Shown piece after piece: positions 11,230 to 26,337 of a stretch of DNA of 64,000 bases. Under the pieces are notes generated by a model that had not been told where the DNA came from, did not search any database, and saw only the letters and a program-made list of their open reading frames with translations. How positions within the stretch are numbered: the first letter of the stretch is position 1; each line of letters starts with the position of its first letter. The stretch lies in the IMG/VR virus record IMGVR_UViG_3300043449_001484, positions 1-64,000 of that record; one strand, written 5' to 3'. A program made the position numbers and the translations under genes. Source of the DNA: a virus.

Positions 11230-13098
11230 TCATACGGCCTCTCCCCAGCTTTTGCCAATCTCTACATCCACTTTACTGGGTACTTCTAATTTCACGGCTG
11301 TTTCCATGATGTTGGCGGCTTCCCGGGCCTCCTCCGCATTCTTGACCGACATGGCCACCTCGTCATGCACCTGCAAGAGCAAATGAAAGCCCGCCTTGTG
11401 CAGGGCGACCATTGCCGCCTTGGTCTGGTCCGCCGCAGAACCTTGAATCAGCCGGTTCAAACCCTTGTAGGTGTACGCGCGCTTGACCTGCCTGCCATAC
11501 TCAACCACAGCTTGCTCATAAGGCAACGGTTTATTCACGCCCCACTGTCGCGGCTCCCAAAGTGAGAAGCGGCATTTGCGGCCCAGTAAGGTACGAATCG
11601 CGCCCCCGGAAGCCGGGTGGTCTATACGCTGCATCACCGAATTCACCGTGCCCTTCAAGTACGGCACTTTCTTGTGAAAGACCTCCAAGAGCTCAGACGC
11701 CTCGTCCATCTCCATATCTAGGGAGGCGGCGAGTTTGCCTTTGCCCATGCCGTACATGAGCCCCAAACCGATGGTCTTGGCCTGCTTACGCTTGATCCCC
11801 GCCATGTCCGCGACCATCTGGTGAAAGTCAGTATTGCCGTCCGTGTGGTACGCCTCGACCATCTTCTCTGCCCCCGGCAAATCCAAAAGACTGGCGTAAT
11901 GCACCAAGAGCCGTGGTTCTTGAGACGAGAAGTCGCAGCTGGCCCAAAGATCGCCTTCTTCGGGTAGAAAGAGCGAGCGCACTAGGGGTCCGATGATTTC
12001 ATGACGCGCGGGCACTTGCTGGAGGTTTGGGTTGGCCATGGACAGTCGTCCGGTGACCGTGCCCCCTTCATCTGAGCGCAGTTGGTTGACGTGCGGATGG
12101 ATGCGTCCGTCGTATTTGGAGAAGTCCAGATAGGGCTGCAGGAACGTGCCGTGAGTCTTGTTTAGCTCCCGTGCTTCCACGATCATTTTGGCCACAGGAT
12201 GCTCACAGGATTCGAGGAAGGATCGGGTGAAGCTTGGTAGGCCCGTCGTGGTCTTAGGGTAAGGCACTTTCAGCTTGTCAAAACCTACGGCAATCGATGC
12301 GGCGGCCCAGATATCCACAGGACTACCGCAAGTGCTGCGAATATCCTTGATCAGTTTGACCTCACGATCTTTGTATTCGGCGATCACGCGCTCTGCCTTA
12401 TCTCTATCAAACCGAGTACCACGAAGGGTAAGGTTGATCAGGATGGGCAAAAGCTCTGTTTCGAGGTCAAAGATGTGTTGGACTTCTTCTCGGACTATAA
12501 GCGGCTTGAATGCCTGCCAGAGTTTTAGAGTAAGCGCAGCGTCCTGTTCGGCGTATTCCCCGACGTACATGGCAGGAAGCTTCCAGAGTTCTTTCTTAGC
12601 GTGTACGCCGAAGTCCCCAGCTGCTTCTTTAAGACCTTGCTCTGATTTGACCTCTTTAAGGTAATCGAAGCCAAGCGCATTGAGGCTGTAGGAGAAACGG
12701 TTTTCGTCAAGAAGCGGGGCGGCGAGCATTGTATCGATAAGCCGTCCGTTAATGGTGAATCCAGAGGATAGTAACCATCCGGCATCATAAGCGGCGTTGT
12801 GCATGACTTTGTCTGCGGGGCTGGCGAGAACCTTTCTAATCCATCGCTCGACAATCCCCTTGTCAAGGTTACCCCCTCCAGCATGAGCCACAGGAAAATA
12901 CCCAGACCAACCGTCCACAGCAATGGCATACCCAACAATGTGCCCATCCCGACGAGGCCAGCCGGGACCCATATTCTCCATGTGTGGGTCACAGGTTTCC
13001 AAATCAATTGCAATCTCCTTCGCATCCGACAGATCAGGAAAGTGAGCCGGGGGCACCCATTCGGTCTTTGTGGGAAATAAGGGCAGGTTCTTGTTCAA
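11230..13098 (-). CDS. polA: Family A DNA polymerase (Leu-762 type)
   Basis: A 622-residue replicative polymerase. The 3'-5' exonuclease is intact: Exo I IDLET (D32, E34), Exo II NAAYD (about 101-105), Exo III YAEQDAA (about 182-188). There is no 5' nuclease domain. Polymerase motifs: A CDFSSQEPR (D389), O-helix R437-KQA-K441-TIG-L445-GLM-Y449, and C VHDEV. The residue equivalent to E. coli Phe762 is Leu445. The start is TTG in a TTGA overlap with the helicase stop; no ATG precedes the Exo I motif. It works with the helicase and primase immediately upstream. Confidence 0.95.
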   Translation of the reverse strand: MNKNLPLFPTKTEWVPPAHFPDLSDAKEIAIDLETCDPHMENMGPGWPRRDGHIVGYAIAVDGWSGYFPVAHAGGGNLDKGIVERWIRKVLASPADKVMHNAAYDAGWLLSSGFTINGRLIDTMLAAPLLDENRFSYSLNALGFDYLKEVKSEQGLKEAAGDFGVHAKKELWKLPAMYVGEYAEQDAALTLKLWQAFKPLIVREEVQHIFDLETELLPILINLTLRGTRFDRDKAERVIAEYKDREVKLIKDIRSTCGSPVDIWAAASIAVGFDKLKVPYPKTTTGLPSFTRSFLESCEHPVAKMIVEARELNKTHGTFLQPYLDFSKYDGRIHPHVNQLRSDEGGTVTGRLSMANPNLQQVPARHEIIGPLVRSLFLPEEGDLWASCDFSSQEPRLLVHYASLLDLPGAEKMVEAYHTDGNTDFHQMVADMAGIKRKQAKTIGLGLMYGMGKGKLAASLDMEMDEASELLEVFHKKVPYLKGTVNSVMQRIDHPASGGAIRTLLGRKCRFSLWEPRQWGVNKPLPYEQAVVEYGRQVKRAYTYKGLNRLIQGSAADQTKAAMVALHKAGFHLLLQVHDEVAMSVKNAEEAREAANIMETAVKLEVPSKVDVEIGKSWGEAV

Positions 13099-15407
13099 AT
13101 TCTAAACCCCTTTTCAATATTCTTGGGCATAACAATGTGCAAGGATTGCTTTGCGCGCGTCATGCCAACGTACAACAACCGATTGATGTCGTCCGAGTTC
13201 CGTGCATAGTCGTTTGCAAACTTGGGAGACAGGTCGGTGAGCAATAAGACATTGTCCGCTTCGCCGCCCTTTGCCCCGTGGATCGTGGACAATTTGATGG
13301 GAACCTTGCCTGTTAGCTTCGCACCACGACGCAGAATGGAGATGATGTACTGGCGCTGAGTATCGGATATTTTAGTGAGTACCTTATGCCAGATGTCGTC
13401 AGTCAAAAGCCCGTAGGAGGTTTTTAGTTCCTCCAACGTGTACTCGTTGTTCGGATCGATGTCACGTAGGGTCTTGAATCCGCGTTTGACGTATTCAACA
13501 CCTAAGTACTTGTAGATGTTTTTGACCACCGGCATGGGCATGGGCTTGCCTTTGCGCAGCGTCTCCCAGCCCAAAACCGCAGAGAGAATATTCTCGGAGA
13601 TGCTCCGTTGTCCGTGGCGCTCGAACATCAGCCCCTGACTCTTCACCCATTCATGCAAGTCGTTGAGCATATAGTTGGTGGAGGCAAGAACCAGCCATTC
13701 GCCATTGGAAATATCAACATGCTCAAAGGCATTGTAGAACTTGACGACACCCTCTTCTTCGCGTGGATGCCATTCTTTTTCTTGTCGGGAATGGATGCGC
13801 TTGACGACTTTGTTGGCAAGCTCGTGGACTCTTGCAGGTACGCGATAAGACTGCTCCAATACCCTGATCTCACCCTCCAAGGAGAGAAAGGTTTTCACGT
13901 CTGCCCCGGCCCACGTGAATACGCAGTTATGGGTAAGGATATTGTCTGCGAAGTAGTTATGGTGTTTCTCTACCTCAAGCGAGTAGACCGTTTCTTTCTT
14001 CCATTTCTTGCTTAACTTAAAGGAGTTCCACTCTACTTTATCCCCCGCTATAGACGGTATCAGCATTATTTCCGGCATGAGGTTGCATGCCCGAACATCA
14101 AAAATTTGTGTTCCACCCCTGCGTTTGGAGATCACTGAGCGTTCATAAATAGGAAACTCATAAGAAATGCCTAAATCGTTTAAAAGTTCTAGTGCACGAG
14201 AATGCGTCGGCAAATTCTTATGAAGTCTATTTAAGGCCTTTTGGAAAACAGGCTCAAGGGTTTTAAACACTGTTTGGGGTATCCCATAAGTGTATGACAG
14301 GTAGTTTTCCCAAAAGAAAGTGTCTTCAGAGTGGTCCACAAGTTTAAGAAACCACATCTTGTCTACTTGTTCTCCGTATGCCCTCACCCAAGCGTGAACG
14401 CATCCATCTGCCCGAAACAGCTGACATTGCCCAATGCGAAAGTTTTCGCCACGCTGCATTAAATAAACTACTCTGTAGTTCATTAAATCTTTTACTGGCT
14501 TCCAACGAACAATACAACGGTGGTTATCGGTGTAGCTCGACTTATTCCCACGCGTAGTGACTGTGTTGATAAAGCCCTCATATGTTCTAGCGGCTTTTTT
14601 AAAGGAATATCCCGCCTTTTTTCCTACTACAGATGCCCCACCACGGTCATAGCAAATCACCCTATCCGTACGTGGGTTTAGTTTCTCAATTGCTACTTCT
14701 CCCCGCGTGGTTAAAACACGTGTTCCTGCTGGCTGGCACTGGTCGTCATCTCCGGCTATGTACATGTTATTACTCCTTTCGGCTAAGGCATGGACAATTC
14801 CCCATTGTAGCCTAGAAAGGTCCTGCGCCTCGTCAATGATCACCGTCTCCAGTTTCGGCAAATAATCAGGCTCATAAATAATCTGCTGCAGGAGATCGGT
14901 GAAATCCATCAGATTGCGGGCATCTTTGAAATGACGATACGCGCGCTCAACATACTCGAAGTGAAACCATTCAATGCGAATGGACGAGTGGTTGTAGTGC
15001 GTGCGCAGGTCTACCCCACGGATACGAGCGATGTTGATCTCGTTCAGAATAGGATTGTCCGTGTGGACGATGAACTCCTCTTCACCGGTATCCACACTCA
15101 TCTCAAGCCCTGCCTCTCGGGCAAACTCTCGATAATGCTCAGGCTTCATGATCTCGCTGTTAGACACTCGCAGGCATCGATACGCGAGACTGTGCAACGT
15201 GCGAAACCACGGGAAGTCCGTCTCCCCGTTGAGGTGATTAAACTTGGCGATGGCACGATCTTTTGCCTCGGTTGCCGCTTTGCGTGTAAAGGCAAAGTAG
15301 CCGATGGCGTTTGATGGCACACCTGCTTCAAGTTCTTTCTCAACGAGGTTCAGAAGGTGAGTAGTCTTGCCTGAGCCCGGGGGACCGAATATCTTATGAA
15401 TCTTCAT
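13095..15407 (-). CDS. UvrD/Rep-family helicase interrupted by an intein
   Basis: A 770-residue precursor; the spliced helicase would be 499 residues. Motif I GPPGSGKTT (about 8-16), motif II VIIDEAQD (about 189-196), motif III GDDDQ split from CVFTWAGAD, and motif VI LLYVGMTRAKQ near the end mark superfamily 1A. A 271-residue intein sits between Q and C in motif III (DNA 13926-14738). I start at the ATG just before the Walker A motif, which overlaps the upstream gene; the frame is open 30 codons further but only because that gene overlaps. Likely the replicative or accessory helicase. Confidence 0.92.
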   Translation of the reverse strand: MKIHKIFGPPGSGKTTHLLNLVEKELEAGVPSNAIGYFAFTRKAATEAKDRAIAKFNHLNGETDFPWFRTLHSLAYRCLRVSNSEIMKPEHYREFAREAGLEMSVDTGEEEFIVHTDNPILNEINIARIRGVDLRTHYNHSSIRIEWFHFEYVERAYRHFKDARNLMDFTDLLQQIIYEPDYLPKLETVIIDEAQDLSRLQWGIVHALAERSNNMYIAGDDDQCQPAGTRVLTTRGEVAIEKLNPRTDRVICYDRGGASVVGKKAGYSFKKAARTYEGFINTVTTRGNKSSYTDNHRCIVRWKPVKDLMNYRVVYLMQRGENFRIGQCQLFRADGCVHAWVRAYGEQVDKMWFLKLVDHSEDTFFWENYLSYTYGIPQTVFKTLEPVFQKALNRLHKNLPTHSRALELLNDLGISYEFPIYERSVISKRRGGTQIFDVRACNLMPEIMLIPSIAGDKVEWNSFKLSKKWKKETVYSLEVEKHHNYFADNILTHNCVFTWAGADVKTFLSLEGEIRVLEQSYRVPARVHELANKVVKRIHSRQEKEWHPREEEGVVKFYNAFEHVDISNGEWLVLASTNYMLNDLHEWVKSQGLMFERHGQRSISENILSAVLGWETLRKGKPMPMPVVKNIYKYLGVEYVKRGFKTLRDIDPNNEYTLEELKTSYGLLTDDIWHKVLTKISDTQRQYIISILRRGAKLTGKVPIKLSTIHGAKGGEADNVLLLTDLSPKFANDYARNSDDINRLLYVGMTRAKQSLHIVMPKNIEKGFRI
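13926..14738 (-). other. Intein in helicase motif III
   Basis: Residues 224-494 of the precursor. It begins with Cys (CQPAGTRVLTTRGEV, block A), has a T-x-x-H block B (SYTDNHRCIV) and ends with VYSLEVEKHHNYFADNILTH then Asn, with Cys as the +1 residue. All catalytic splicing residues are therefore present. The middle (about 110-190) has WFLKLVDHSEDTFFWENYLS and YGIPQTVFK. I see no LAGLIDADG or HNH signature, so a degenerate or unfamiliar homing domain is possible. Its DNA is more AT-rich than the flanking helicase. Confidence 0.93.
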
Positions 15408-15642
15408 CGTCGTCGTGCACGCGCCAGAGAATGATGGGCTGAGTGTCGCCTGCATATTTGAAGACAAACTCGCGCTCGATATACTCGGCAGCTTCATCCT
15501 CTCCCATACTCTCTTCTTGAATGAGGTACTTGATCATTTCGATGCCGTCGTAAACCAGACGCTCGACCAACTGATCACCATGCCACGTGCTGCAAATACC
15601 TAGTTCAGCTTGTTTGAATTTATTGAGTTCTAGGATATCCAT
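15394..15642 (-). CDS. Hypothetical acidic protein (82 aa)
   Basis: An 82-residue acidic protein (ELGICSTWHGDQLVERLVYD, ending VHDDDEDS). The ATG overlaps the primase stop as TAATG, with AAGGAG 11 bases upstream, and its end overlaps the helicase start. Its place between primase and helicase suggests a replication accessory role. No family recognised. Confidence 0.6.
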   Translation of the reverse strand: MDILELNKFKQAELGICSTWHGDQLVERLVYDGIEMIKYLIQEESMGEDEAAEYIEREFVFKYAGDTQPIILWRVHDDDEDS

Positions 15643-17171
15643 TAGAACGGCGCTCCTTTCTGTTCGTGGGTTTCAAAGGGTGACTCTTGACGCGTGAAGC
15701 GTGGTACTCGCCACGCCCTTATTGCTCGACCTTTCAAGAACATGGATATAGGCTCTCCTCCGATGTCACGAATCTTTTGCGCCATGCGAGGAGCAGAGAG
15801 TCCGTTGAAGGAAGAGCGCTTTAAGTGTGCTTCAAGATCCTTCATGCGGAAGTAAACACGTCCTTCTTCTTCGTCCACCCACGGTCTGCCCATGAGCATT
15901 TCTTCACGGTCCATTGCTTGTTGCAGATGGGTAGTGAATTCTTCCAAGAGATCAGTGAAGCGACCGCTGTAGCTGGTGTCTTCAGGTGCATCTTGTATCT
16001 GCTCGAGTTCGACCATTTCTCGCAGCAAGCCGTTTAAAAAACTCTCCCAATCCTGTTTGCGCAACGTAGGAGGAAGAACATTTAGCCGTTCTACACAAGC
16101 TTTTTGAAAGGCTGGTTGATTAAATAGCTGATCTGTGTCGAGTTCTACACGACGGCCATTGACATCCAAGAACCACAACGGTGGCTCAGAGTTGTATTTG
16201 GAGAGGCTGGAGATTTTTGGTGCGTCAGGGCCGTCCGCACCAATGCCGTGTTTGCGTGTGCGGCAAAGCCCAGCATTGCAGAAAGAGTTTAATGGTGCGT
16301 CTTTGCACTTGTACTTGTAGTCCTTCTTGTGCAGCTGCTTTGTGATTACCTGAAGCTCGTTCATGGGCAGAGGTGGGCCCATATACTTCAGGTTGTATTC
16401 CATCAGCTTATCTTCCCAGTTGCTGCTGTTGGCTTTTTTCAGGTAGATCGCGATATTAAATAAGCCGTTGTTGCGAGTGCCTTCCGGAAATCCCTGATTG
16501 CAAAGCGCCTGTAAGCACGGGGGACCGTCCTTGATTGGTGTATCTGCATCTTTCTTTTCCTCTTCCGGATGAACGAGCGGCAATGCTTGTACGTGCTGTT
16601 CGTAAAGCCCGTAGAATTGATCAAGTGTGGCAGCCGTGCCATCATCATTGATCGCGTAGCGCAGGGTTTCATCGCCCCCGAAATACGGAAGGTTAAGGAA
16701 GTTACCCGTGTCACCGCGTTCAACAAGAACTTCAGTTTGCTTCGGAAATATTTCACGTCCACTTTCTCCCAGTATGCTTGCACAAGTCGTGAGGTATCGT
16801 TGCATCTCCGCAGCCGGGATGCATTCTTTTACAAACAAAAACACATGAGCGCCGCCCGACTTACTACGGCAGACAACCAGCGGAAGCTTTAACCGACGAA
16901 CCTTCTCCACCAACCCCTTATGGTCGAGAGGATACTGGTCAATATCGATACAACCCCATATGCAGCTATTGTCAGGACGAATAGGAATGATGCCAAGAGA
17001 AGGCTCAACGCCCTGAAGATGAGCAATCCAAAGGTCATCTGTCGGGGGCTTCCTAACGACAACTGCTTTTCCCGCTTGTTTGCCATTGTCTTTTGCTCGC
17101 TCTATTCTGTATGTTCCATAGGCGATATCTGACCCTTCAAATATCGACTTGAACTTTGCGATGTCAGTCAT
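15642..17171 (-). CDS. AEP-type primase/PrimPol
   Basis: A 509-residue protein with the archaeo-eukaryotic primase signature: CIDIDQY (D76, D78) and CRSKSGGAHVFLF (S103, H109), the pattern of phage and TOTE-like primases. A Cys-rich part near the middle (YKCKDAPLNSFCNAGLCRTR then KHGIG) probably binds zinc or Fe-S and is typical of these enzymes. It would prime replication for the polymerase and helicase downstream. Its C-terminal part is helical and of unknown role. The genes run head to tail with TAATG coupling to the next. Confidence 0.85.
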   Translation of the reverse strand: MTDIAKFKSIFEGSDIAYGTYRIERAKDNGKQAGKAVVVRKPPTDDLWIAHLQGVEPSLGIIPIRPDNSCIWGCIDIDQYPLDHKGLVEKVRRLKLPLVVCRSKSGGAHVFLFVKECIPAAEMQRYLTTCASILGESGREIFPKQTEVLVERGDTGNFLNLPYFGGDETLRYAINDDGTAATLDQFYGLYEQHVQALPLVHPEEEKKDADTPIKDGPPCLQALCNQGFPEGTRNNGLFNIAIYLKKANSSNWEDKLMEYNLKYMGPPLPMNELQVITKQLHKKDYKYKCKDAPLNSFCNAGLCRTRKHGIGADGPDAPKISSLSKYNSEPPLWFLDVNGRRVELDTDQLFNQPAFQKACVERLNVLPPTLRKQDWESFLNGLLREMVELEQIQDAPEDTSYSGRFTDLLEEFTTHLQQAMDREEMLMGRPWVDEEEGRVYFRMKDLEAHLKRSSFNGLSAPRMAQKIRDIGGEPISMFLKGRAIRAWRVPRFTRQESPFETHEQKGAPF

Positions 17172-20447: not shown

Positions 20448-21169
20448 TCCCTAAAAAAGACTTGTACGTTTACGAGCCCCTAGAGCGGATCGATTCACCC
20501 ACGGGGCGCACCTACCGTCGGGGAGACGACGCGCCTGTGTCCAGTGTGACTACCATTCTTGACCAGACGAAAGATAAGCGCACCTTGGACGCGTGGGTGG
20601 CGCGTGTTGGAGAGGCAGAAGCGGAGCGCATTAAGATGGAAGCCGCTCGCACAGGCACGGCAATGCACTTGGCTATAGAGTGTTTTCTTGATAGTAAGCG
20701 ATTACACCCACCGGAAGACTGGTTGCAGGCTCGCGGGTATGAGATGGGCTACCGGTTAATCAACAAGCACTTCTCCTCTTTAGAAGAGGTCTGGGGGCTT
20801 GAAGCACCGCTTTACTATCCCGGCAAGTACGCAGGCACAACGGATTTGGTGGGTTTATGGCGTGGAAAACCTGCCATTATTGACTTTAAACAAAGCCTAA
20901 AGCCCAAGCGCTATGAGTGGATCACGGATTATTTCCACCAATTATCGGCCTACGCTATGGCGCATGACGCCACATACGGCACCAATATTGATTACGCGGT
21001 GATTTTGGTAGCGGTGCAGGATGGAACAACGCAGGAATTCACGACCACGGGCCGCGAATTCGAGCGTCAAAAGAAGGAATGGATGGCGAGGGTAGAAGAT
21101 TTCCTCGCCAAGAAGGCTACTGAATCGTCGTATCAAACGGGAACAGACGCTTCAACATCTCCCGGCTAG
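20435..21169 (+). CDS. PD-(D/E)XK exonuclease (RecB/Cas4-like)
   Basis: A 244-residue nuclease. The RecB-like signature is visible: GTAMH (H78), E123, GTTDLVG (D137), AIIDFK (D150, K152) and QLSAYAMA (Q169). It probably degrades host DNA or processes ends for recombination, alongside the SNF2 helicase with which it overlaps by 13 bases. GAGGAG lies nine bases before the ATG. Its 3' end overlaps the convergent 1082-residue gene by 53 bases. Confidence 0.88.
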   Translation: MAYLIPKKDLYVYEPLERIDSPTGRTYRRGDDAPVSSVTTILDQTKDKRTLDAWVARVGEAEAERIKMEAARTGTAMHLAIECFLDSKRLHPPEDWLQARGYEMGYRLINKHFSSLEEVWGLEAPLYYPGKYAGTTDLVGLWRGKPAIIDFKQSLKPKRYEWITDYFHQLSAYAMAHDATYGTNIDYAVILVAVQDGTTQEFTTTGREFERQKKEWMARVEDFLAKKATESSYQTGTDASTSPG

Positions 21170-24100
21170 ACCCTCCACCTGCGGGTTGTGGGCCCACAGA
21201 TTGCGGTCCACCCCCACCAAGATTTAGCCCGGGGATACCTTTCGTAGGAACCGTAGTTGGCTGACGACGAGGTGTGACGCTCCGCTGAACCGGTGGCGCT
21301 TGAACCGTGGGCTCTGGAGCGGGTTCTTCAAAACGCTCGTAATTTAGCCCGGCAGCGGTCAAATACGCGTGCATTTGACGAGCCAAACGCAGTTGTTCGC
21401 CTTCTGTGACGCCTTTGCGCAAGAGCAAGGCCATCATCTGCGGGTCTTTGGTGGCCTCCTCAATGATGCCGCGAACCAAAAGCATCGGGGATTTGTCAAA
21501 AATTTGACGCATGTACTTCGAGCCTGCAGATGCTGCAATTAGGGATCCCGGGCCGCTGCCAGAAACACCCGTGCCGATACGGGAACCAACCACCCGCAAT
21601 GCTAGTTCAGTAGCCGCATCCGCACCTTGTACTACACCCTCCAACAATCGACGGTCATCCATGGATTGTTCTACCCGTTTCATCGGGTTAATAATGCGTT
21701 TAAGGTTTTTCCCTTCAGAAAGGGACATTACGCCTTGGGAACGAAGGAGGTTGTAAATAGAGGGTTGATCTTTTGCAAGTGGCTTAAAGAAAGCATCCTC
21801 AAAAGCCTGAGCACTAAAGCCCTTGTCTCCACCTGCCTTAGTGAAGGCATAATCGTAAAGGCTAGACTTTAACCCTGCTACTGCATCTGGCCCGCCCGCT
21901 TTGGCGAGCTTTGTGATGTTGCTGAGACTCTTAATGGGAAAGCGGCTGTTTAAGGCGTCCGCTACCGCCATCGTCGGCGACTCAAACTTTAATATTTGTG
22001 CAAATGCCGTCTGATTGCGCAGATTCTTTTGCATGACGCTGTTGCCAGATAGTGTGGCTTTCAGTGCGTTTTCTGCTTTCACAACGCTAGATAAATCGTC
22101 CGTAATCTGCAGTTTATCTAACAGCGGTTTTTGCTTTTCTACGAAACGTGTGAGACGAGAAACGCTCACCCGTCCAGTGTTGGGGTCGATTGTCTCAGCT
22201 GCTGCAAGGCGAAGAATGCGTTCTTGTGCGTCACGGATAGATACAACACGACCTTCAGATAAGTCAGCTAAGGGCTTCAAGGATTGGGCTTGAGCACTGT
22301 CACGACCAAATTTATTAACCGCATCATCATACTGACGACGCAACATGCCTACAGCATCTTCAATATCCGCCATACGCATGGCAGTAAGGTCATTATTAGC
22401 ACCAAAGGCACGTTGCACTAGCACCTCTGGAGGCAAAGCCGGTGCTCCAGTTGCCTTCTTCGCGAGCATTTCACCTGCAAAGCTACGGGTAAAATAATCG
22501 TTCAAAACACGAGAAAAATCACGAGCCTCGTTTAACTTTGAAGACTGTACTTTTGATAAGTCTTGCAACATGCCATCGGCTAATGAACCATAGAACCGTG
22601 TTTCGCTGTTCTCTCCTCTAACAGAAGCTTGACGCGATAAGTCTAAAAGATTGGAGCGAAGATTAACTAGATCAGGGAGTTCCGTTTCTTTTATTTTTGG
22701 CAAAAAAGAACTAGGGATCTTACCCGTTTCAGCAAACTCTGTTGTGTATTTCCCTTGCCGATACAGTGCAATAGCCTTGTCATCGATGCCTATACGAGAC
22801 ATAACGTCTTTAACAATCTTTGGCACTGTATCTTTATAGATGACTGGGTCAAGTTGAATCACTTCATCCAAAAACTTTTGTCCCGTATTAGTAGGAGCAA
22901 CAACAGGATACTTAACACGTGTGACTTCTTTTGTGGTGGTTAAAGGCTTACCACCCGGTCCCAATATTTTACTTGGCACACGTTCAGTAGATGTCACAAC
23001 AGAAGGGGTGCTGAGGCTATTTATAGCGTTGTCCCAAAGAAAACGCTCATGTTTACGGGCATCCGACAGTGATTCATAAGTCGCATCGCGAACGATCTCC
23101 CCAATCTGCTGACGCGCTTCAGGAGTGTCTTTGCTAATGTTACGAATCTTTTGTGCTGCATTGGCCAAGGCAATGCCTTGACGATTGTCGAGCATGGCAC
23201 TAAACGCCTCTTGCCGCAATTGTGCAGCGGCACGAAGTGCCTGAGGCGTTCCTATGTCACTCAAGTTTTTAGCAAGAAGTTCATAAGCAGTTAGCGTCGT
23301 TTTGGCTTGTTCTGCAATCTCGCCGCCATATTTGGCATTACCTGTTGCAAGCGTGTTTTCAAGAACACTTAAAGCACGTGAGCCGGTCTTTTGTGCTGCA
23401 GTAGGTTGTGCTCCTCTGGGTAAGTTTGCCTCTAGCGCACGAATAACCTTATCAATATCTTCTCCAGAATCCTGCAAAATAGAATAGAGCTTATTTGCAG
23501 CACGTGCTTCTTTTGCGTCCTTAGAAAAGGCAGACATAACATTTCCTGCCAATGCTTTGGCAGAACCAAGGTGTATGAATAGCCTTGAAGGCGCAAGCAC
23601 GCCTCCAGTAACTTCTGCTAAAAGCCTTGTGCCGGGTTCCCCGGGCGCAGTCTGTTCTGCAACTCCTGCACCAGCACCGGCACCCGCCCCAGAAACGACC
23701 TCTGCGGTCAGGAAGGATTTTGGATATTGCTGGGCTGTTCTGCCCATTCCTGCTAATACGTCAGTAAAAAAGCGTGAAGCACGTGCAGCCCCCTCCATGC
23801 CAAATTTTGCGGCAACGGGAATAGATAAACGAATAGCTTGAGATAAACGCTCTGCTTGTGGAACAGGGATGTTAAATGCAATAGGAGCCAACGCAATCGT
23901 ATCGCCCCATGTCTTACCGCCTTCACGATAAGGTACTAAATCCTGACGCGAAACACCGGGATATTTAATATCAAAGTTGTCCCCTAATAGGCTACCCACG
24001 CCTATTCCCACCATAGTGCCACCTGCAACCCCTAAAGGCGCATAAGAACCCATATAGGGAGCTGCTGCCATACCTGCACGAAAACCAACTATTCCACCTG

Positions 24101-24365
24101 TTGTTGCAGGAGCAGTACGCGTCATTCCCTCAAGCAGGCCATAGCCTACTTCAGTCGCCTTTTCTCCAACAGTAGGTTCTCCAGCTCCGGAAATAGTTTC
24201 CAAAGTTTCAGGTAGTCCCGTAATGGGATTGATCGCGCCTTGCACACCCCCTGTAGACGCAGGAGCTACACCTGTTGGAGGTGCACCACTCAATAGTTCG
24301 GATGCGCGACCCGCCCCGCCGGGGGCAGACAAAGCTTCTAACTGTCTTTGGATATCATCAGCCAT
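21117..24365 (-). CDS. Large internal virion protein candidate (1082 aa)
   Basis: A 1082-residue protein with a Gly/Ala-rich hydrophobic region near residues 75-135 (GGIVGFRAGMAAAPYMG, GVAGGTMVGIGVGSLLG), a second Gly/Ala segment (VVSGAGAGAGAGVAEQ), then a long helical body. The Pro/Thr-rich C-terminus (VTPRRQPTTVPTKGIPG) looks disordered. Size, composition and place among virion genes fit an ejection or internal core protein of a podovirus. No enzymatic motif is visible. It starts by TAATG overlap with the upstream gene. Confidence 0.6.
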   Translation of the reverse strand: MADDIQRQLEALSAPGGAGRASELLSGAPPTGVAPASTGGVQGAINPITGLPETLETISGAGEPTVGEKATEVGYGLLEGMTRTAPATTGGIVGFRAGMAAAPYMGSYAPLGVAGGTMVGIGVGSLLGDNFDIKYPGVSRQDLVPYREGGKTWGDTIALAPIAFNIPVPQAERLSQAIRLSIPVAAKFGMEGAARASRFFTDVLAGMGRTAQQYPKSFLTAEVVSGAGAGAGAGVAEQTAPGEPGTRLLAEVTGGVLAPSRLFIHLGSAKALAGNVMSAFSKDAKEARAANKLYSILQDSGEDIDKVIRALEANLPRGAQPTAAQKTGSRALSVLENTLATGNAKYGGEIAEQAKTTLTAYELLAKNLSDIGTPQALRAAAQLRQEAFSAMLDNRQGIALANAAQKIRNISKDTPEARQQIGEIVRDATYESLSDARKHERFLWDNAINSLSTPSVVTSTERVPSKILGPGGKPLTTTKEVTRVKYPVVAPTNTGQKFLDEVIQLDPVIYKDTVPKIVKDVMSRIGIDDKAIALYRQGKYTTEFAETGKIPSSFLPKIKETELPDLVNLRSNLLDLSRQASVRGENSETRFYGSLADGMLQDLSKVQSSKLNEARDFSRVLNDYFTRSFAGEMLAKKATGAPALPPEVLVQRAFGANNDLTAMRMADIEDAVGMLRRQYDDAVNKFGRDSAQAQSLKPLADLSEGRVVSIRDAQERILRLAAAETIDPNTGRVSVSRLTRFVEKQKPLLDKLQITDDLSSVVKAENALKATLSGNSVMQKNLRNQTAFAQILKFESPTMAVADALNSRFPIKSLSNITKLAKAGGPDAVAGLKSSLYDYAFTKAGGDKGFSAQAFEDAFFKPLAKDQPSIYNLLRSQGVMSLSEGKNLKRIINPMKRVEQSMDDRRLLEGVVQGADAATELALRVVGSRIGTGVSGSGPGSLIAASAGSKYMRQIFDKSPMLLVRGIIEEATKDPQMMALLLRKGVTEGEQLRLARQMHAYLTAAGLNYERFEEPAPEPTVQAPPVQRSVTPRRQPTTVPTKGIPGLNLGGGGPQSVGPQPAGGGSSREMLKRLFPFDTTIQ

Positions 24366-26329
24366 TATTGCCTCACGCGCAGGTCAGAACCGTTCCACAA
24401 GAACGGCGTACCGGGAGCTAGTTTTTGTACTTCTTTAATCGTATAAATGCGAACAGGGATACCGAGTTTAGGCCTGAAGTTCTCAATTAAGGTTTTAATT
24501 CGTGCATGTTCTTTACGCTGATCAACAGGAATATTCGCGTTCGTGGAATTACGTTCGGAATCACGCATGCGACCTAGTAAGAAATTATCAATACCGATTA
24601 ATTTGTTACGCAATTTCTCCGGATCATCAAAGAAACGTGGTTCGACATTTAGCTCGTTTTCGATAGCTTTACGTTCAGTTTGCGCATATACAGGACTATT
24701 TTGCAAACTCTTCACGAGTTCACGGAAGTCTCCTAAGTAACGTGCGCGTGCCTGTGTAACATCTTTGCCTACGCCGCCAAGGCCGGGAATGCTAGATATC
24801 ACATCTTTTGCTGTAGGGATCGGGCCGGTTAGAACAGGAGTCAACTCCCATAACGTCGGTTGCCTTTTTGCCGATGGAGCTGGCGTAACAGGTTCTTGAT
24901 CCGTGGTCACTGCATCGGTAGTAGGAACTGCACTTGTGCTGACCGGTGCTGCAGCAGGCGCAGCAGTCGGTGCTTCAGCAGGTGCAGCACCTTTCTTACT
25001 ACCTTTAACAGGCGGCGTGGGAATATTCTTGCGAAGGGCCAGTGAATTGGAGACGAAGTCTGGAATTGGTGGATCACGACGTACTACGTTACCAGTGAAT
25101 GGATCCGTGTAATAAGTCGGCTCACTAATGATCGCATACGAGCTCTCAAAGCGGCGATCCATTTCAGGGGGGAGTGCCCCTGCACCATATTCAGGTGCAA
25201 ACTTAGTGACGAAGTTCCATGCAGTGCCTTTGACACCAGACCCAAATCCACCGCTACGTGCGGCTGCTTTGACGATGTCAGCCGACGCTTTGCGCTGTGA
25301 TTCCAACAGTTTGTAGTTGTACTCGCGGATGACTGCAATATCTTTCTCACCCGCTTGCAGTGCCATCGCTTTTAGTTCACGCTCTGCTTTGGACAACTCT
25401 CCTGCGCGTGCACCAATCATTGCAGGCACGTTTTTCATGCCCGCAGCAAAACGACCCACAGGCGATACTCCGCCACGAATCGGACGGCCTTCGGCATCTA
25501 CGCCTGCCGCCACATTCAAGGCACCCGAAGCAATGTCAAACAGCATTTGCGCCTGTGTCATCTGCTTATCAGGTCCCAACAGGCGCTGATACATTGGCAG
25601 ACGACTGGCCATCGCCTGCTCCAATGAAGGAGAGCGTTGAGGCCTCTCCGACATCAAATTAGCCAAATCCTGCTGGGCTTTTGCAACCAAATCTGGAGGG
25701 TAGAAGGCACCTTGGCCCCCTGCGTCTACTAGGGTCACGCCCTCCTCATCGGACCCCTGTTGAAAATGTTGAACAATGCCCCCGTTTTTCATTGAAATAG
25801 GGGCTTGTTGTTCAGCGGCAGCAGGTAGTGATCCAATCCCCCCGGGAGGCGGGGCCTCGGGCATGGGCATCGGAGGCGCGGTCTGTGGCCCTTGGGCCAT
25901 GGCTGCTAAATCGGCTATCCCGCCTGCAGGAGCTGCCATCGGGCCTTGTGGAGCAGGACCTGCCATTTGTGCTGGGGGTTGCGCCATTGTGGCTTGTTGG
26001 GCCAAAACGGGCTGCAAAAGCGCCAAAACTTCTGTAGGCGTCTCTGCTGCCGCGCGGTAGCCCACCAAGTCGGCAAGTTCTTCCACGCGCGCGTCTACGG
26101 AGCGCATGTCGCCTCGCAGGTTGTTCATCAGGATTTCGGGCGAATCAGGACGACGGTCCATCATCTTGCCCATCTCCATCTCGTCGTCTTCGCCCTCATC
26201 TTCCATGTCGTCCATCGTATCGACTTGGTCCATGAAGCCTTGCATGATGCCGACGTTGTCCGCTTCTTCCGGAGGAATAGGCGGTCCTTTCTTTTTGAAC
26301 AACGGCCTATCAAGTACCTTGGATTTCAT
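24365..26329 (-). CDS. Virion-associated protein with disordered N-terminus (654 aa)
   Basis: The N-terminal 200 residues are low-complexity: acidic and Met-rich (MDDMEDEGEDDEMEMGKMM), then Ala/Pro/Met-rich, ending in ISMKNGGIVQHF, one of the repeated GG motifs. A helical middle is followed by an Ala/Pro/Thr linker (about 440-500) and a compact C-terminus with SIPGLGGVGKDVTQARARYL. Two ATGs lie after AGGAGG; I take the second for spacing. Probable internal virion or ejection protein. Confidence 0.6.
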   Translation of the reverse strand: MKSKVLDRPLFKKKGPPIPPEEADNVGIMQGFMDQVDTMDDMEDEGEDDEMEMGKMMDRRPDSPEILMNNLRGDMRSVDARVEELADLVGYRAAAETPTEVLALLQPVLAQQATMAQPPAQMAGPAPQGPMAAPAGGIADLAAMAQGPQTAPPMPMPEAPPPGGIGSLPAAAEQQAPISMKNGGIVQHFQQGSDEEGVTLVDAGGQGAFYPPDLVAKAQQDLANLMSERPQRSPSLEQAMASRLPMYQRLLGPDKQMTQAQMLFDIASGALNVAAGVDAEGRPIRGGVSPVGRFAAGMKNVPAMIGARAGELSKAERELKAMALQAGEKDIAVIREYNYKLLESQRKASADIVKAAARSGGFGSGVKGTAWNFVTKFAPEYGAGALPPEMDRRFESSYAIISEPTYYTDPFTGNVVRRDPPIPDFVSNSLALRKNIPTPPVKGSKKGAAPAEAPTAAPAAAPVSTSAVPTTDAVTTDQEPVTPAPSAKRQPTLWELTPVLTGPIPTAKDVISSIPGLGGVGKDVTQARARYLGDFRELVKSLQNSPVYAQTERKAIENELNVEPRFFDDPEKLRNKLIGIDNFLLGRMRDSERNSTNANIPVDQRKEHARIKTLIENFRPKLGIPVRIYTIKEVQKLAPGTPFLWNGSDLRVRQ

Positions 26330-26337
26330 CATTCCTC

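Follow-up and report, generated by a model that had tools for sequence, protein, structure and literature searches.

The closest described counterpart of the element analyzed here is an intein annotated in the UvrD helicases of phages SPO1 and CampHawk and of their relatives; the CampHawk announcement (PMC3868849) describes it without a nuclease type, and the SPO1/CampHawk record likewise gives none. Inteins of class 1 require Cys, Ser or Thr at the +1 position (PMC2814812). In haloarchaeal MCM inteins a splicing-incompatible flanking proline is co-converted to serine at invasion, a case that was called rare (PMC10643990). A superfamily survey of 2006 did not find GIY-YIG nucleases in inteins (PMC1564403), and the intein nucleases named in later reviews are mainly of the LAGLIDADG type, one review listing GIY-YIG only as a general family of homing endonucleases. 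With I-TevI, a GIY-YIG enzyme, cleavage falls 23/25 nt upstream of the insertion site and the protein remains on the exon II side, which biases co-conversion to exon I (PMC2988022). Against this background we analyzed a stretch of 64,000 nucleotides of a virus (IMG/VR record IMGVR_UViG_3300043449_001484, positions 1 to 64,000; hereinafter the window), in which an intein of the SPO1 type interrupts a helicase gene. All coordinates given below for this gene and its intein refer to the minus strand.

A class 1 intein in motif III of a UvrD-like helicase

The ORF at 13095–15497 (800 aa) encodes a UvrD-like helicase into which 271 codons are inserted in frame. It matches the Pfam domains UvrD-helicase (3.4e-24) and UvrD_C (1.1e-11) as well as the PHROG family phrog_1967, DNA helicase (1.8e-81). 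By comparison with the cultured phage DSL-LC04, the start is probably Met31 (15407), giving an intein-interrupted SF1 helicase gene at 13095–15407; the 30 ORF codons upstream of this likely start (15408–15497) overlap a small ORF at 15394–15642. The N-extein (14739–15407) ends in motif III (...MYIAGDDDQ), where the complete intein of 271 aa (13926–14738) is inserted (GDDDQ/C), and the C-extein resumes as CVFTW, beginning with the +1 Cys codon (TGC, 13923–13925) and continuing through 13095–13922. An intein at exactly these positions in motif III had been proposed in a preliminary description of the window, with intact splicing residues and a composition unlike that of the flanks; the boundaries prove correct to the base, the residues read as Cys1, T70-D-N-H73, H270-N271 and TGC, and both GC (43.7% versus 51.1% and 50.3%) and GC3 (44% versus 61% and 65%) are lower in the intein than in the two exteins. 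No second intein was found among the 14 further ORFs scanned.

The splicing domain is made up of an N-terminal Hint segment (residues 1–84; 14487–14738), which opens with CQPAGT and carries block B as TDNH at residues 70–73, and a C-terminal Hint segment (residues 206–271; 13926–14123), whose block F (VYSLEV...YFADNILTHN) closes with ILTHN directly before the Cys. The sequence hence combines the class 1 features of Cys at position 1, a block B TxxH, a terminal HN and Cys at +1. The match to Pfam Intein_splicing (2.8e-7) lies under the gathering score; NCBIfam intein_Cterm matches above its cut-off, and Hint_2 also matches. An AlphaFold2 (AF2) model of the intein, computed from an alignment of 35 relatives, has a pLDDT of 95.6, and its predicted splicing part superimposes on inteins of solved structure and on the Hint domains of hedgehog proteins with Z 19–20 and 1.6–1.8 Å. 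The insert is a full-size class 1 intein, and its motifs and predicted fold make protein splicing very plausible. A pseudo-intein or a chance motif match is ruled out by the full-length homologues, the Hint fold and the empty sites in relatives.

Beside the helicase lies a primase gene (15642–17171, minus strand) with a TOTE-type archaeo-eukaryotic primase domain (PF22548, 1.2e-12; phrog_21866), and phage DSL-LC04 has the same order of primase, small ORF, helicase and DNA polymerase A. Further along, at 21117–26332 (minus strand), are two long ORFs of 1082 and 655 aa without a Pfam or PHROG match.

The central domain is a predicted GIY-YIG-like nuclease

Between the Hint segments, residues 85–205 (14124–14486) form a domain for which the AF2 model, structure comparison and profile comparison together predict a GIY-YIG-like nuclease fold. 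Folded alone with AF2 it reaches a pLDDT of 95.3 and shows a strand-strand-helix-strand-helix arrangement followed by further helices. Foldseek against the PDB returned nothing with E < 0.85 for this domain, with Slx1 only at rank 41. A second look in the PDB with VIA had GIY-YIG proteins in all of rows 1–11 (Z 3.8–5.2), headed by UPF0213 BH0048 (Z 5.2) and including Slx1 (Z 4.0–4.5) and UvrC (Z 3.8–4.0), before an unrelated protein in row 12 (Z 2.8); such Z-scores of a predicted structure are low and would be insufficient alone. In a viral structure library a helicase, a methyltransferase and an unnamed protein rank first, all three apparently of the intein family studied here, and beyond that family GIY-YIG and intron endonucleases lead.

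No Pfam nuclease family matched residues 85–205, and none of the 35 members of the intein family that were scanned matched the GIY-YIG family (PF01541) at the cut-off. A profile of 135 central-domain sequences scored 25.8 against a GIY-YIG profile built here (60 column-shuffled controls, at most 15.2), and an alignment of 35 sequences scored 23.9 (150 such controls, at most 15.9). As a yardstick, MUG113, which belongs to the same clan as GIY-YIG, scored 25.1 in the same comparison. The profile alignment places VYLM...RVG on vYIl...YtG and EA...E on EA...E; the hhalign probability for the pair is only 41%, with Arg119 left unaligned. Similarity to the T5orf172/MUG113 profiles, measured against shuffled controls, varied with the alignment used, so kinship with these is not consistently supported. 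The central-domain profile retrieved only a chance match to Mx1 among PDB sequences, and profile comparisons using small T4 and ICP1 sets were uninformative.

The residues expected of such a nuclease are nearly invariant. Tyr92 (14463–14465), the counterpart of the GIY tyrosine, is present in 135/135 relatives; Arg101-Ile102-Gly103 (14430–14438) takes the place of YIG, with the Gly in all 135 and Arg instead of the canonical Tyr in 134 of them; Arg119 (14382–14384), a putative catalytic arginine in the first helix, is kept in 132 of 134, and Glu144 (14307–14309), a putative metal-binding glutamate, in 134 of 135. Trp129 is likewise conserved (134/135), and position 140 is Thr in the window and Ala in 129 of the 135 relatives. 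In the predicted topology Tyr92, Gly103, Arg119 and Glu144 would correspond to Tyr19, Gly31, Arg39 and Glu76 of Thermotoga UvrC, Arg101 replacing its Tyr29; we take these UvrC residues to be the motif and catalytic residues of a GIY-YIG nuclease. Members of T5orf172/MUG113 often have Lys at the YIG Tyr position. The domain thus resembles the GIY-YIG nucleases (UvrC N-domain, Slx1, UPF0213, I-TevI) in its predicted topology and Tyr/Gly/Arg/Glu counterparts, and differs from them in the Arg for the YIG Tyr, a shorter Arg–Glu stretch, its seat inside an intein and the lack of a significant single-sequence match. Since it falls below the Pfam cut-off and lacks the YIG Tyr, we call it GIY-YIG-like and not a canonical member, and the near-invariant residues in 135 relatives argue that it is not a decaying spacer. 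From the predicted structure and the conservation we infer that this central stretch of 120 residues acts as a GIY-YIG-like endonuclease.

The preliminary description had seen no obvious LAGLIDADG or HNH endonuclease in the center, and the lack of a family match and a predicted fold that is not LAGLIDADG bear this out. It had further suggested a degenerate or a novel nuclease. Degeneracy finds no support, given the confident fold and the conservation of the putative catalytic residues; novelty holds insofar as the type was not recorded in inteins by the 2006 survey, and does not insofar as the domain resembles a known superfamily.

The intein belongs to a widespread, site-hopping family

A tblastn search against phages recovered a full-length match (39.6%) in UvrD helicases of phage SPO1, of CampHawk and of related phages. 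The SPO1 (gp34.33) and CampHawk inteins share with the one in the window the VGDDDQ/C site, alignment over the full length (39.5–39.6% identity), a comparable length (275 and 271 aa) and the central domain; they sit in a helicase of a distant UvrD type with Ser, unlike the Cys of the window, at +1. Neither this same-site relative nor the signs of homing in the flanking sequences had been part of the preliminary description. Weaker relatives occur in Vibrio phage RYC, in the UvrD helicases of Justusliebigvirus and in Streptococcus suis prophage methylases; of the latter, the phiD12 intein (30% identity) belongs to the same family and has the same central motif, but resides in another host protein at a different site (...HEP/C).

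An alignment-based scan extended the family to 63 viral and 80 cellular loci, whereas a single-sequence pattern scan of viral contigs had found none. Its host sites include UvrD/PcrA motif III, the commonest among helicases, and points that lie a few residues downstream of this motif; others are the Walker B motif (DELQD/C) and a ParB-methylase site (HEP/C or HEW/C). Given these varied host sites, the intein in the window belongs to a widespread family that hops between sites. Related inteins at motif III (GDxDQ/S) of chromosomal PcrA/UvrD proteins from Chloroflexi, Acidimicrobiia, cyanobacteria and others differ from that in the window in having Ser at +1, in their length, which in many is about 355 aa, and in residing in cellular genes. 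Eight such loci (L194, L200, L205, L212, L213, L221, L226, L240; Chloroflexi, Acidimicrobiia, cyanobacteria and candidate phyla) have inteins mostly of 352–363 aa with Ser at +1, i.e., some 80 residues more than the intein in the window. Other members (L013–L020, L026, L034–L035, L169–L191) lie in ParB-methyltransferase-like proteins, in many of them at HEP/C or HEW/C, and come from phages and from bacterial contigs (planctomycetes, acidobacteria, alphaproteobacteria, streptococci); yet others (L033, L044, L051, L064) are found in different host ORFs, e.g., of 1408 and 1621 aa.

Empty sites and one-sided co-conversion

A scan with the joined extein recovered 80 helicase relatives, 59–82% identical over the extein, in all of which the site is uninterrupted and the +1 residue is Ala (GDDDQ/A); the site is also empty, with Ala at +1, in DSL-LC04 (69% identical). 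All four distinct intein-bearing members (the window, L008 with its duplicate L009, L010 and L011) have Cys at this position, and the change from an Ala codon (GCN) to TGC or TGT takes two or three base changes. As in the haloarchaeal MCM inteins, an incompatible flanking residue would have been co-converted; the difference is that here the incompatible Ala is present in every intein-free relative recovered, whereas the MCM case was called rare.

In an extein tree built without the 40 residues on either side of the junction, the four intein-bearing rows occupy four separate positions, and the window groups with the intein-free L163, L087 and L090 at 100/100. The 60 codons (180 bp) upstream of the insertion, by contrast with this tree, unite the four intein-bearing rows in a single clade (SH-aLRT 98), whereas such a clade can be rejected both for the 60 codons (180 bp) downstream (p-AU 0.0015) and for regions further out (p ~3e-5). 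The excess similarity of the intein-bearing alleles is limited to positions −120 to 0 and is reached by one in 2000 random quartets of equal divergence; on the other side of the junction 1796/2000 quartets reach the same likeness. In the window this corresponds to a co-conversion tract of ~120 bp of N-extein (14739–14858) common to intein-bearing alleles only, which is nearer to L008, L010 and L011 than to its own close kin; the C-flank follows the intein-free kin, with which the remaining C-extein also groups.

A recent event is preserved in two near-identical phages, of which one has the intein (L008) and the other does not (L140). They are 97.4% identical over 4.6 kb; the regions concerned are 3001–3819 of L008 and 2501–3997 of L140. 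The L008 intein is 61% identical to that of the window, the exteins of the two being 64% identical. Directly upstream of the insertion 68 of 200 bp differ between L008 and L140, i.e., 41 and 27 differences per 100 bp as against ~1 elsewhere, and the excess fades by ~300 bp; downstream, +1 and +2 (Ala to Cys) and +4 are the only differences before +325. L008 has thus acquired a foreign tract of 200–300 bp on the N-extein side only, plus the Cys codon. Within the tract L140 keeps its kinship to the outgroup L136 (0.74–0.87) and L008 does not (0.58–0.71), which marks L008 as the recipient. Misassembly of L008 is ruled out, since L009, from another assembly, is identical to it over 5456 bp. Selection on the extein was rejected as the cause of the flank similarity: many of the L008/L140 differences are three apart, like silent changes, and the tract stops right at the junction.

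On these comparisons of flanks, co-conversion is strongly one-sided, toward the N-extein, and the trees show, at the level of sequence, that mobile alleles entered different lineages of the helicase by gene conversion. By the same evidence the intein family is a homing element, the support for the window being its flank phylogeny; the recent homing event is visible in L008 and not directly in the window.

Proposed mechanism and alternative readings

We favor the reading, to which we give a probability of roughly 0.75, that the element is a mobile class 1 intein with a GIY-YIG-like nuclease and one-sided co-conversion that imports the +1 Cys. As the motifs and fold suggest, the Hint halves would excise themselves from the helicase after translation and ligate GDDDQ with CVFTW, rebuilding motif III with Cys where intein-free kin have Ala. 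The central endonuclease would cut helicase genes that lack the intein, either at the motif III codons or upstream of them. Gene conversion, as the sequence comparisons show, carried along at least ~120 bp of donor N-extein (200–300 bp in the best case) and the +1 codon, but next to nothing of the C-extein. With the imported Cys codon, splicing would become possible in helicases that natively have the incompatible Ala at +1. The direction of co-conversion is the same as with I-TevI, and the one-sided tract is compatible, by this analogy, with a distant upstream cut; it does not prove the nuclease type, because any enzyme that cuts on the N side or protects the C side would do.

How far the central domain can be assigned bears on two of the alternatives. 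The nuclease of a mobile intein could have a fold unrelated to GIY-YIG, the likeness reflecting a common small beta-beta-alpha-beta-alpha arrangement; the low Z-scores, the lack of Foldseek or Pfam significance and the replacement of the YIG Tyr by Arg would fit this. We regard it as improbable, since GIY-YIG proteins fill VIA rows 1–11 and a gap separates them from the row that follows (3.8 versus 2.8), GIY-YIG and intron endonucleases lead the viral-library matches outside the intein family, and the profile scores exceed all 210 column-shuffled controls with the motif stretches aligned. Somewhat less improbable, though still doubtful, is a formerly mobile element that has become resident, the window copy splicing with an inactive endonuclease. 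Homing elements commonly decay after fixation, and Thr140 of the window departs from the usual Ala; against this, no putative catalytic residue is missing, the center is as conserved as the rest (54–60% to the nearest relatives), and the nearest kin of the phage are intein-free, so that targets exist.

The flanks bear most directly on a third possibility, an ordinary ancestral intein that was inherited, repeatedly lost and left with a center that is no longer a nuclease. The similar divergence of the window and L008 in inteins and exteins is what vertical descent would give. This reading is already disfavored, and we consider it very unlikely: each loss would have to restore Ala, at two or three base changes, in 80/80 empty relatives; the foreign tract in the L008/L140 pair lies in the intein-bearing allele; the N-flank and C-flank trees conflict; and the central residues are conserved as much as the splicing domain. 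To return to the mobile intein, a fuller formulation of it, in which a GIY-YIG nuclease of variant type, with Arg for the YIG Tyr, moves a widespread phage and bacterial family, cleaving on the N-extein side so that repair imports an obligatory +1 Cys into hosts with Ala, seems to us slightly more probable than its contrary.

Significance for intein biology

The intein itself is of an already known type, the SPO1-type UvrD motif III intein. What is apparently unrecorded is a GIY-YIG-like nuclease within inteins: the later reviews and phage papers that we covered, mostly outside subscription journals, contain no report of a GIY-YIG intein, and phrase searches of that literature returned none either. 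If correct, the assignment would give inteins a new class of nuclease and account for a domain that has gone unannotated in SPO1 and numerous other phages. In L008 and L140, nature provides a before-and-after picture of intein homing. The import of the Cys codon would, if the reading holds, show an intein settling where the native residue does not support splicing, and so loosen the rule by which a Cys, Ser or Thr must already be in place at +1.
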